This document shows, one piece after another, positions 11,770-42,730 of a stretch of DNA of 64,000 bases (the first letter of the stretch is position 1; each line of letters starts with the position of its first letter). This DNA is from Natrinema zhouii (GTDB taxonomy: Archaea > Halobacteriota > Halobacteria > Halobacteriales > Natrialbaceae). The notes beneath the pieces were generated by a model, which was given only the letters and a program-made list of their open reading frames with translations, was not told the DNA's origin and searched no databases. The position numbers were made by a program, and so were the translations under genes. Where the stretch lies: NCBI RefSeq assembly GCF_013456555.2, contig NZ_CP059154.1, positions 434,001 to 498,000 on the forward strand, given 5' to 3'.

Positions 11770-12429
11770 ATGGCCATCATCGCCGAAATATCGATCGAGG
11801 CCGACGAGTTCCTCCTCGGCCAGATCATCGCCGAGTACCCCGGCCTCTCCGTCGAGATCGAGCGCGTCGTCCCCGCGGCCAAGCGGGTCATGCCGTACAT
11901 CTGGGGGTATGGATCGGATCTGCGATCGTTCGAAGTCGCCATGAGCGAGAGTCCGAACGTCAGATCAATCACCGCGCTCGACGAGTACGACGATCGGGCG
12001 CTGTACAAGATCAAGTGGGAGGACCCGGCCGAGCAGCTGATCACCGGCATCGCGCAGACGGATGCAACGATCCTCGAGGCCCACAGCGACGAGGAGTGGC
12101 TCTTTCGGATCCGCTTCGAGGAACACGCCGGGCTCGCACGCTTCAATCAGTACTGTACCGAGCACGACATCGCGTACCGGCTCAACCGAGTCTCGTCGCT
12201 GGCCGACATCGACGCCAACGGGGACGATTACGAACTCACGGAGGCTCAGTACGAGGCGGTCTCGCTGGCCGTCGAGCGGGGCTACTTCAAGGTCCCTCGC
12301 GAGGTCGAGTACGAAGAACTCGCCGACGAATTGGGTGTCTCAGTGCAGGCGTTCTCGGAGCGGGTGCGCCGTGGGGTTGACAAAGTGCTTCAGGCCGTTT
12401 TCCTCCGCCCGAATTCGAGAAATCCTTAA
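11770..12429 (+). CDS. HTH_10 (bacterio-opsin activator type) transcription regulator
   Basis: The 219-residue protein has an N-terminal ligand/sensor-like domain (residues 1-150). The haloarchaeal HTH_10 domain is at the C-terminus (about 160-215): LTEAQYEAVSLAVERGYFKVPREV followed by YEELADELGVSVQAFSERVRRG. These regulators are numerous in haloarchaea and control target genes as single-component factors. The gene is followed 90 bp later by a DUF7344-type gene in the same direction, an arrangement repeated at 27243-28648. It is divergent from the RecA-like gene. Confidence 0.82.
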   Translation: MAIIAEISIEADEFLLGQIIAEYPGLSVEIERVVPAAKRVMPYIWGYGSDLRSFEVAMSESPNVRSITALDEYDDRALYKIKWEDPAEQLITGIAQTDATILEAHSDEEWLFRIRFEEHAGLARFNQYCTEHDIAYRLNRVSSLADIDANGDDYELTEAQYEAVSLAVERGYFKVPREVEYEELADELGVSVQAFSERVRRGVDKVLQAVFLRPNSRNP

Positions 12430-12519
12430 TCGGATCTTCAGAGACGCCATTACTACTGAGATAAAGGTCATGAGTAGCCCGGCGGACAGGCTATCGTCGT
12501 CCCGAACTACTGACCGAGC

Positions 12520-12909
12520 ATGGTAGAACGACTCCGGCTCGAGCAGGTAGACACGCCCGAATTCCTCGACGGGATACACGCGCTGCTGGCCGATTCGACG
12601 CGGCGGAACGCGCTCCGACACCTGACGACGTACAGCGGCCCGGTGACCGTCTACCGACTGACGACCGAACTCGCGGCGGCCGAATACCGGATACCGACAA
12701 CCGACGTTCAGCCGGAACAACGACGGGAGATCGATCTCCTCCTCCGGCACGCACACCTGCCAGTGCTTCGCGACGCAGGCCTGCTCGAGTGGGACCGAGA
12801 CCGCGATCTGGTTTCGCTGACGTCGCTGCTGGATCACCTGTCGGTAACAATTGCAAGCCCGCACAACGTGCTCGACATCTCGGTTTCCTCACGCCTAGAA
12901 CTGTCCTGA
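12520..12909 (+). CDS. DUF7344-type winged-helix protein
   Basis: The 129-residue protein has the haloarchaeal pattern of an N-terminal helix (FLDGIHALLADSTRRNALRHL), a long middle helix, and LLRHAHLPVLRDAGLLEWDRDRDLV, which corresponds to the recognition helix and wing. There are no membrane segments. It probably binds DNA, but no target or ligand can be read from the sequence. Its position directly after an HTH_10 gene suggests a functional link. Confidence 0.7.
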   Translation: MVERLRLEQVDTPEFLDGIHALLADSTRRNALRHLTTYSGPVTVYRLTTELAAAEYRIPTTDVQPEQRREIDLLLRHAHLPVLRDAGLLEWDRDRDLVSLTSLLDHLSVTIASPHNVLDISVSSRLELS

Positions 12910-27941: not shown

Positions 27942-28078
27942 GCCGGTCCGCCGGCTCGACCGCGCTTGAACCCGATCCGTCGGATGACCCACACGCTGTC
28001 GCCGAGCGATCTGTCTCACGAATGAACGAGTGCGTAGATTTATCTGTTGGACAGGAATACTGTTGGCCGTGAACCCGA

Positions 28079-28648
28079 GTGTTCGAACGCAGCCAGACGG
28101 ATGGCGTCAGTGAATCACCGCACGCATCTGCTGTCATCGACGATCCGTCTGACCTCTCACTCGACGATATTTACCATCTTCTACAGACGAAGCGCCGTCG
28201 GGACGTGCTCCGATACCTGCACGAGGAGGGTGGGCGGGTGCGGTTGCGCGACCTCGCCGAACAGGTCGCCGCCTGGGAGCAAGAGACGGCCGTCGAAAAC
28301 CTGAGTTCCGACGAGCGCCAGCGGGTTTACATCTCGCTGTATCAGTCACACCTGCCGAAACTCGACAATCACGGAATCGTCAACTACGATAAAGACCGCG
28401 GTTGGGTCGAGCCGACGCCGCTCGTGGCACGGCTGCAGCCCTATCTCGAGCCACCGTATCGGACCCAGTCGTCCGAACGGTGGCCGCGACGGTACGCGGT
28501 GACGATCACCCTTTGCGGGCTATTTCTCGGGGCGATCGCAGCGGGGATCGTTCCGGTTTCCGGACTCGTCGGGGCGGGACTCGTGCTCGTCGCGTTCACC
28601 GTCGTAACGGGTGCACACGCGTGGTCGACCGATGCATTCCATCGATAA
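28079..28648 (+). CDS. DUF7344-type winged helix with two C-terminal membrane helices
   Basis: The 189-residue protein starts with GTG 28079. Residues about 25-125 form the DUF7344-type winged helix: LQTKRRRDVLRYLHEEGG, then YISLYQSHLPKLDNHGIVNYDKDRGWVE. Two hydrophobic helices follow (LCGLFLGAIAAGIVPVSG and GAGLVLVAFTVVTGAH). It is a membrane-tethered DNA-binding-like protein downstream of the HTH_10 gene. A GATTTATC TATA box about 40 bp upstream suggests its own promoter with a roughly 12-nt leader. Confidence 0.75.
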   Translation: MFERSQTDGVSESPHASAVIDDPSDLSLDDIYHLLQTKRRRDVLRYLHEEGGRVRLRDLAEQVAAWEQETAVENLSSDERQRVYISLYQSHLPKLDNHGIVNYDKDRGWVEPTPLVARLQPYLEPPYRTQSSERWPRRYAVTITLCGLFLGAIAAGIVPVSGLVGAGLVLVAFTVVTGAHAWSTDAFHR

Positions 28649-30174: not shown

Positions 30175-31296
30175 ATGCGATACGATACCCCCGTGCGGTT
30201 CGAGCCCGAGGGCTGGGGGGAATCGACGGCGGCCATCGTCGGGATGGGACTCGTTCTCTCGATCGCCGGCATCGTCCAGACGCTCGGCACGCCGGCCGCC
30301 CGGCCGGTCGTCGCGTACGAACTGTTCGTCTCGTTGCTCGTCCCGACCGGACTGGCCACCGGCGGCTACTGGCTGGCCGATCGAAACGTCTCGTCGGCCG
30401 ATCGCTGGCGGGCCGTGACGAAGGTGTCGGTCGGGATCGTTCTCGCCTGCGTGCTCGCGCTCTGGCTGACGGGATACGTCGCCCTCGAGAGCAGTGCGAT
30501 CCGTGACCCGCTGGGGCTGACGACGACGCTGGCCGGCGTCGGCGGTGCGACCGGCTTCGTGAGCGCCGTGCGTGAGCTGCCAGACGAGTCGATCGGCTCG
30601 AGCGGACCGCCGAGAGCGGCCGGTGTCGCGCTGTCGGCACCGACTGACCCATCCGACTCGACGGCGACGGCCACTGCGTCGAACGAATCGACGACGACCA
30701 CTGCGCTCCCGTCGACCGCGCTCGAGTCGCAGAGCGACGTGCCGGCGATACCTGAGACGACGACCCCGCTCTGGACCGACGTCGATCCGCTCGGACGGGC
30801 CGGCGCTCCCGCGCGACCCGTGGAACCGTCCGAACGGACCGCGGTCGACGGTACCTTCCCCGACGCGTTCGAGGCGTCCGTCCGCGATGTGTCGGCCGAT
30901 CCCGTCGGCTCGCACGACTCGCTCAAGTCGCCGACGGCGGCGCGGGATCCCGGCGTCGACGCCGTCGCGGCCGTTCCGTCGACGGCCGAGACGGTCCTCG
31001 GCGTCCTCCGGCGCGAGCGTGCCCGCATCGCCCTCGCGGTCTTGTACCACGAGTGGGACGGTGCGGAGCGATCGGTCGAGGCTCTCGCCAGCGCCGTCTC
31101 GTATCACGTAGACGACTCGGCCGATGCCGTTGCGGTCGGACTGCGACACGCGACGTTGCCCGAACTGGCGGAGATTCGAGCCGTCGACTGGGACCGTCGT
31201 ACCGGTCGCGTCTCGGCGTCCGACCACGCCGTCTTCGAAGAGGGCGTCCGCGAAGCGGCGGTGCTGCTCGAGTCGTTCGAACCGGGGACGAGATAG
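30175..31296 (+). CDS. Membrane protein with disordered linker and C-terminal DUF7344-like winged helix
   Basis: The 373-residue protein has four predicted N-terminal membrane helices (about residues 18-135). A long Ser/Thr/Ala/Pro-rich segment follows (about 140-275). The C-terminal domain (about 275-365) resembles the DUF7344 winged helix: LGVLRRERARIALAVLYHEWD and VAVGLRHATLPELAEIRAVDWDR. A TATA-like CGATTTATG about 28 bp upstream supports the start. The YchF-type GTPase gene follows after about 95 bp. Confidence 0.62.
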   Translation: MRYDTPVRFEPEGWGESTAAIVGMGLVLSIAGIVQTLGTPAARPVVAYELFVSLLVPTGLATGGYWLADRNVSSADRWRAVTKVSVGIVLACVLALWLTGYVALESSAIRDPLGLTTTLAGVGGATGFVSAVRELPDESIGSSGPPRAAGVALSAPTDPSDSTATATASNESTTTTALPSTALESQSDVPAIPETTTPLWTDVDPLGRAGAPARPVEPSERTAVDGTFPDAFEASVRDVSADPVGSHDSLKSPTAARDPGVDAVAAVPSTAETVLGVLRRERARIALAVLYHEWDGAERSVEALASAVSYHVDDSADAVAVGLRHATLPELAEIRAVDWDRRTGRVSASDHAVFEEGVREAAVLLESFEPGTR

Positions 31297-41478: not shown

Positions 41479-41883
41479 ATGATCCCGCTACTGAACTCAC
41501 CCGAGAGCCTCACCGCATTTGGCGATTCACGTGCTGACGCCGTCGATACGGCGATGGATCTGCTGTCGAATCGACGCCGCCGTGCGATATTGGACTCTCT
41601 CGAGGAGAGCGACGGCTCCGCCACACTGACGGAGCTCGCAGTGGAGATCGCGGCACAGGAGGCGGGCTCCGAGCCGAACGCGATCTCGGATCACGGTGAC
41701 GTCTCGGCGAGAGACCGCCGGGCCGTTCGGATCTCGCTCCACCACACGCAGATTCCCAAACTGGCGGCCGCGGAGGCCGTCGACTACGATTCCGCGACGG
41801 AGACGGTCACGCTTCGCGATCGCGGACGGGCGCTGCTCTCCCGGCAGGAGGCCGTTCGCGGCCCCCCGCAGGAATCCCGATAG
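41479..41883 (+). CDS. DUF7344-type winged-helix protein
   Basis: The 134-residue protein has the DUF7344-type pattern: LLSNRRRRAILDSLEES, TLTELAVEIAAQE and RISLHHTQIPKLAAAEAVDYDSATETV. It has no membrane segment. The TATAAATA box lies about 27 bp upstream, so this is its own leaderless transcript. It precedes a TrmB-type regulator interrupted by a stop codon (41942-42730), perhaps a former regulatory pair. Confidence 0.72.
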   Translation: MIPLLNSPESLTAFGDSRADAVDTAMDLLSNRRRRAILDSLEESDGSATLTELAVEIAAQEAGSEPNAISDHGDVSARDRRAVRISLHHTQIPKLAAAEAVDYDSATETVTLRDRGRALLSRQEAVRGPPQESR

Positions 41884-41941: not shown

Positions 41942-42730
41942 ATGCCCACCGAAAGTCAGGCGGTGCGGCTCCTCGACGACCTCGGCCTCACTGAGTATGA
42001 GGCCCGCTGTTTCGTCGCACTCTCGCGCGTCCAGACAGCGAGCGCGTCCGAGATCCACACGCTGTCGGACGTCCCTCGTTCTCGCGTGTACGACTCCGTC
42101 GAATGACTGCACAGAGACGGACTCGTCGACATCCAGCAGACCGAACCCCGCAAGTACCGAGCACTTCCCCAGGATGTCGTCCTCGATCGGCTTCGCGAAC
42201 AGTACGCGTCCATGCTCGAGGCCACCGACGACGCCCTTTCGAAGCTCCGCCGATCGAAAGGTCTCGAGGAGCAGGGCGCGTGGGCGATCGCCGATCACGA
42301 TAACGTGACCGATCGCCTCGGGCTCCTTCTCGAGGATGCGACCGACGAGATTTACGTGCTCATCGCCGACGAGGACACGCTCGACGACGAACTGTTCGAT
42401 CGGCTCGCAGCGGCGTCCGAGTCGGGCGTCTCCGTCCTGATCGAAGTCCCGTCCGAGGAGACGGCAGCACGGATTCGATCGCGCGTTCCCGATGCCGCCG
42501 TGGCGACGACCGCGCTCGCGGCGGACCCGGCGCGACTCGAGGGCAAGTGGCTGAGTCGGATCCTGCTGGTCGACCGTCGAGCGGTCCTCCTCAGCGCGCT
42601 GTCGGACGGGACGCGACCGAGTAACACGGAAGAGACGGCGCTCTGGGCTGAGGGCCCCGATCACGGGCTCGTCGTCGGCATTCGACAGCTGCTCGGCACG
42701 CGGCTCGATCGCGGCTCGGTGTTCGACTGA
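41942..42730 (+). pseudogene. TrmB-family regulator interrupted by an in-frame TGA
   Basis: Translation from ATG 41942 gives a winged helix (MPTESQAVRLLDDLGLTEYEA, SDVPRSRVYDSVE) and stops at TGA 42104-42106. The next codons read LHRDGLVDIQQTEPRKYRA, the continuation of the same helix and wing, and then a C-terminal TrmB-type sensor domain. At the interrupted position an Arg codon such as CGA would be usual, so one C-to-T change could explain it. Total length without the stop is 262 residues. The effect on the product is not proven; readthrough or reinitiation near ATG 42212 would give only the sensor part. Confidence 0.75.

Follow-up and report, generated by a model that had tools for sequence, protein, structure and literature searches.

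Bat, the member that gave the HTH_10 regulators their name, activates the nearby bop gene (PMC7824242), and in Galperin et al. 2018 (PMC5847659) it is a light- and redox-sensing regulator, with canonical Bat-type proteins carrying REC, PAS and GAF input domains. The passages of that paper on the HalOD1 output domain give its copy numbers and its fusions to REC, PAS and KaiC and do not describe adjacency to HTH_10. In the window, a stretch of 64,000 nt from Natrinema zhouii, two HTH_10 genes (H1 and H2) are each followed on the same strand by a DUF7344 gene (D1 and D2), with spacers of 90 and 137 nt (Table 1). An earlier note had read this arrangement from the letters; coordinates and Pfam matches agree with it, and all four proteins exceed the curated cut-offs of their families (BAT, PF15915, 25.8 bits; HTH_10, PF04967, 23.1 bits; DUF7344, PF24035, 27.8 bits). 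The likeness of H1 and H2 to the Bat/HTH_10 family lies in their shared BAT and HTH_10 domains. Against the REC-PAS-GAF-BAT-HTH_10 layout of canonical Bat, they comprise BAT and HTH_10 only (219 and 232 aa, no Pfam match to REC, PAS or GAF in either) and have a small output gene as partner. They are short HTH_10 family members and not Bat orthologs.

Table 1. Positions of the two gene pairs and of the elements between their genes, counted from the first letter of the window
Feature	Description	Position	Strand	Evidence
H1	Stand-alone BAT + HTH_10 regulator, 219 aa	11770..12429	+	BAT 35.9 bits, HTH_10 57 bits
D1 promoter-like block	GATAAAGGTCATGAGTAG; TATA-like box and conserved flank, operator candidate	12460..12477	+	Conserved in 7 orthologs
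D1	Short DUF7344 protein, 129 aa, predicted winged helix	12520..12909	+	DUF7344 56.6 bits
H2	BAT + HTH_10 regulator from a lineage other than that of H1, 232 aa	27243..27941	+	BAT 28.1 bits, HTH_10 64.3 bits
H2-D2 gap	Without R1; relatives carry a conserved structured RNA there	27942..28078		Comparison with relatives
D2 TATA-like box	TTTATC upstream of D2	28039..28044	+	Position as in congeneric species
D2	Long DUF7344 protein, hydrophobic C-terminus	28079..28648	+	DUF7344 107 bits

The earlier note had suggested that the pairs may be a two-component-like module. They resemble two-component systems as small haloarchaeal signalling gene pairs, but this label was not borne out: a Pfam scan of H1, D1, H2 and D2 found neither a histidine kinase nor a receiver domain, and the partner gene has a promoter-like box of its own, unlike a simple operon. 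Since a small output partner, DUF7344 or HalOD1, comes after HTH_10, the unit is better described as a Bat-type regulator with an output gene than as a two-component system. D1 is the short, soluble form of DUF7344 and D2 the long, membrane-type form, which groups with unpaired long DUF7344 proteins. The two membrane helices proposed for D2 are compatible with its hydrophobic C-terminal region, although a strict hydropathy scan called the first only.

The earlier note also listed two other genes in the window. That at 41479 belongs to DUF7344, as proposed (77.1 bits), and the TrmB-like frame behind it (41942-42730) is indeed interrupted, an in-frame TGA standing at 42104. The gene at 30175 (30175-31296) encodes a membrane protein whose supposedly related C-terminal domain is borderline DUF7344-like, scoring 24.5 bits by hmmscan and 29.2 bits in the genome search, where neighbouring stretches were included, against the cut-off of 27.8. 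A gene resembling it comes after D2 in genome G004 (L121). Neither gene has an HTH_10 neighbour, and DUF7344 numbers about 47 genes in this genome; the two are unexceptional members or borderline relatives of that family and not additional instances of the pair.

The window genome (5.34 Mb, five contigs) contains 51 DUF7344 matches, corresponding to about 47 genes, and 52 HTH_10 matches, so two neighbouring pairs within 64 kb might be luck. We therefore counted pairs, defined as a co-oriented DUF7344 domain within 400 nt after HTH_10, in four genomes carrying 35-62 HTH_10, 36-51 DUF7344 and 23-52 HalOD1 matches each, and obtained expected values by circular shifts in which one family was slid against the other around each contig. 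Seventeen pairs were observed (6, 5, 5 and 1 per genome) against 0.38 expected, and the reverse order did not occur in these four genomes. Three genomes lay above every shift, whilst G001, with its one pair, was not significant alone. The earlier note had proposed to weigh the pairing against gene abundance, which it clearly exceeds. That the pairs arise by chance from about 50 HTH_10 and 47 DUF7344 genes per genome is refuted by these counts and retains a negligible probability, for all that both families are large and G001 lacks a significant excess of its own. Taken over both partner types, an HTH_10 gene followed by a small DUF7344 or HalOD1 gene occurs at about 50 times the chance level; only ~15 % of HTH_10 genes in the four genomes have such a partner, and the majority of DUF7344 and HalOD1 genes are unpaired. 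The association is strictly ordered and is present in several haloarchaeal families.

DUF7344 had been named as the partner, which is confirmed but incomplete: in the same shift test HalOD1 (PF18545) was nearly as frequent, with 14 HTH_10-HalOD1 pairs observed against 0.28 expected and none reversed. A scan with the HalOD1 profile identified many HTH_10 genes followed by HalOD1 in place of DUF7344, as stand-alone genes lying directly after HTH_10 or after HTH_10-DUF7344. Some pair-1 orthologs display the latter order, with a HalOD1-annotated third gene on the Haloterrigena turkmenica plasmid pHTUR01 (HTUR_RS20740/RS20735/RS20730) and on a plasmid of Halobaculum magnesiiphilum. No HalOD1 gene stands beside pair 1 in the window, where 55 nt separate D1 from a convergent next gene. 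Tandems of DUF7344 and HalOD1 are rare (3 forward, 3 reversed). Among 80 named loci collected with the pair-1 HTH_10 profile, a set biased to pair-1-like proteins, the next gene was DUF7344 in 14 and HalOD1 in 11. We also identified a divergent four-gene cassette, DUF7344<-HTH_10|HTH_10->HalOD1 with a partner on each side, at 12 loci (L226, L227, L228, L230, L231, L232, L238, L224, L234, L240, L177 and L075), representing eight named genera and two genomes of one further genus in five families: Natrialbaceae, Haloferacaceae, Haloarculaceae, Haladaptataceae and Natronoarchaeaceae.

A tree built from 115 HTH_10 regions, sampled in favour of pair-1 relatives, placed H1 in a clade (SH-aLRT 98) of 24 members, 22 of them paired with DUF7344, and the paired label required 12 changes versus 29 in shuffles. 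D1 adjoins H1 in all seven close H1 orthologs, window included, and the distribution of these orthologs is patchy (7 of 61 genomes), with several located on plasmids. Such a concentration of paired genes in related clades, together with patchy and plasmid-borne orthologs, would suit a single ancestral HTH_10-DUF7344 pair that was duplicated and spread by plasmids or islands with no functional link between its members. However, outside the H1 clade separate pairing is seen for pair 2 and for two multidomain HTH_10 lines, giving at least four HTH_10 lineages with a DUF7344 partner, among them multidomain sensors whose partner is a double DUF7344 protein. HalOD1 is also found in this place, and pairs are retained at about 40 % identity across families, so we consider common descent on its own very unlikely. 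One of these separate paired lineages, in which a gene for a protein with two DUF7344 domains comes after a multidomain HTH_10 sensor gene, was seen in the window genome itself (L101, C1:2648414-2649320) and at L172.

Many partner genes are preceded by a promoter-like box at a fixed distance. With a hexamer set picked after looking, start codons placed by rule and orthologous gaps that are non-independent observations, a TATA-like hexamer was present in 26 of 33 H-D gaps versus 5.2+-2.2 in shuffles, and it lay 57-68 nt before the D ATG in 19 of the 33 compared with one of 39 unpaired DUF7344 genes of the window genome. In H-HalOD1 gaps, it was found at 62-68 nt in 11 of 24. With TATA-like boxes at a fixed distance in the gaps, an operon with co-translation was set aside as the simplest reading. 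Judging by this box, partner genes generally appear to be served by a promoter of their own, with read-through possible in addition. The D1 box lies 60 nt ahead of the D1 ATG; as Haloferax transcripts are mostly leaderless (PMC3986360), this distance suggests that partner genes carry a leader of about 30 nt.

The same gaps bear on whether H physically associates with D (or HalOD1) in a regulatory complex, as the earlier note implies, with adjacency serving co-expression. The strict order and short distance would be expected of such a complex, as would the correlation of H and D partner distances among close relatives (Mantel r 0.50, 0 of 2000 permutations). Below 60 % HTH_10 identity this correlation was absent (r -0.11 to -0.14); deep co-evolution of the partners was thus not seen, and they may have been exchanged. 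Given also a promoter-like box at fixed distance that would be needless for co-translation, and one HTH_10 family combined with two unrelated partner families, we regard a complex as unlikely.

The AlphaFold2 model of D1 (pLDDT 80, about 90-97 in the core) displayed a helical core and a beta-hairpin wing, as in solved winged-helix regulators, and matched ArsR/MarR/DUF24-type regulators at Z 9-10 (YodB 10.1, ArsR 9.5, haloarchaeal RosR 8.7). Foldseek returned best E-values of 0.02 or worse, and the model of H1 (pLDDT 65) was too weak for a fold search. At the sequence level, DUF7344 has a weak likeness to ArsR; its profile gave weak ArsR-type and Brr2 helicase matches only in a search of PDB sequences, and D1, though alike to ArsR/MarR regulators in predicted fold, matched no curated ArsR or MarR family. 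PHROGs and NCBIfam gave no useful match. D1 is thus predicted to be a winged helix, a fold that is by itself no proof of function; on this prediction, we propose that the DUF7344 partner binds DNA.

Comparison of the seven pair-1 orthologs revealed a conserved block around GATAAAGG(C/T)CATGAGTAG in the H1-D1 gap, whilst the DNA upstream of H1 was not conserved. A regulon search with this block gave no further targets, as it occurs in the window genome at its own site only at up to 2 mismatches. A perfect inverted repeat at the D1 TATA box, also considered, was clear in L050 and L052 only and was imperfect or lost in the other orthologs. The 3' end of H1 showed no excess of synonymous-site conservation of the kind an activator site might leave (0.50 in codons 201-220, 0.48-0.68 elsewhere), so the conserved block may serve D1, TFB or another factor. 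Its position over the TATA box fits repression as much as activation. D could repress its own promoter, with H upstream merely through joint inheritance or movement and exerting no action on D; the overlap of block and TATA box is repressor-site-like, the D1 model resembles ArsR/MarR winged helices and the H1 3' end holds no conserved activator site. Yet HalOD1, which is not known as a DNA-binding protein, sits in the same place behind HTH_10 and shares the promoter geometry, and separate HTH_10 lineages show the same pattern. Autorepression alone is in our view quite unlikely.

Pair 2 has a different history. About 43 of the 61 family genomes have a clear H2 ortholog, and in the HTH_10 tree H2 stands apart from the H1 clade. 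A DUF7344 gene lay downstream in ten of 20 H2 regions examined, with 460-1040 nt to its domain; the other ten had none there. Directly 3' of H2 orthologs, and ahead of DUF7344 where that gene is present, is a conserved element of about 180 nt, designated R1, which is also found behind H2 where DUF7344 is absent. R1 folds into a consensus structure: in an alignment of 30 sequences that was fitted to the model and so favours the structure, 96.7 % of cells pair and both sides have changed in 8 of 23 pairs, a signal abolished by sliding the structure. Example loci are L290:1501-1678 and L289:1501-1685, with 28 further. A covariance model detected R1 in 48 of the 61 family genomes (single copy in 47, two copies in one), including all nine sampled congeneric species and, as a further carrier, Natribaculum breve, and every match in a class-wide sample fell within Natrialbaceae. 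The same model did not find it in the window genome. H2 was directly upstream in 24 of the 30 best matches. No H2 ortholog was seen within 1.5 kb upstream of R1 at L306, L311, L317 and L308, nor at L307, where the contig is too short to tell; R1 loci without H2 are often still beside orthologs of the window's downstream genes 28724 and 29337. Because R1 is found without upstream H2, it is independent of H2. Searches of Rfam 15 gave no R1 match at the gathering threshold over seven host loci, a tRNA being the only hit; with E up to 1, three loci likewise yielded no match.

As R1 is carried by relatives, including nine congeners, and is missing here, the shortness of the pair-2 gap (137 nt) is best explained by a deletion in which an RNA gene was lost and the D2 TATA-like box retained. 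On this reading, pair 2 is what remains of an H2-RNA-D2 locus. It is not a pair-1 unit, and the two pairs are not two copies of one module. The idea of a repeated module in the earlier note consequently survives for the oriented HTH_10-DUF7344 unit, which is far above chance and spans several families, but not for the two pairs in the window. R1 is a candidate RNA family absent from Rfam, with a natural deletion in the window genome.

For pair 1, the reading we favour, at about even confidence and together with the RNA-deleted origin of pair 2, is that of a recurrent haloarchaeal unit in which a Bat-type regulator sets the promoter of its adjacent partner. The unit would consist of a small Bat-type one-component regulator gene and, directly after it, an output gene encoding DUF7344, HalOD1 or sometimes both. 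H1 would sense a cue through its sensor-like BAT domain and act on the D1 promoter, and the regulator would in this way set the level of its partner, which would pass the signal on. If the predicted winged helix is correct, a DUF7344 partner would bind DNA, probably including its own promoter. Control of the adjacent partner promoter by the regulator is the most likely function of the arrangement. More tentatively, these genes may follow a plug-in design, in which Bat-type regulators each drive a dedicated DUF7344 or HalOD1 output from a leadered promoter, divergent cassettes act as two-armed switches and partners are interchangeable cartridges of one network; we consider this possible rather than probable.

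The families HTH_10, DUF7344 and HalOD1 are already known; what appears new is their fixed order, in which a Bat-type regulator is accompanied by a small output gene dedicated to it. Our literature search, which covered few subscription journals, found no description of a fixed order of HTH_10, DUF7344 and HalOD1, in keeping with the earlier suggestion that the arrangement had not been described. It also found no paper naming DUF7344 and no published function for the family, and the literature on DdfA, CsmR and HVO_1357 gave no link between HTH_10 and DUF7344. The fixed gene order connects three large, mostly uncharacterised families and names likely regulator-target pairs. Each pair offers one promoter to test, and the roles of stand-alone HalOD1 and DUF7344 proteins become directly testable.
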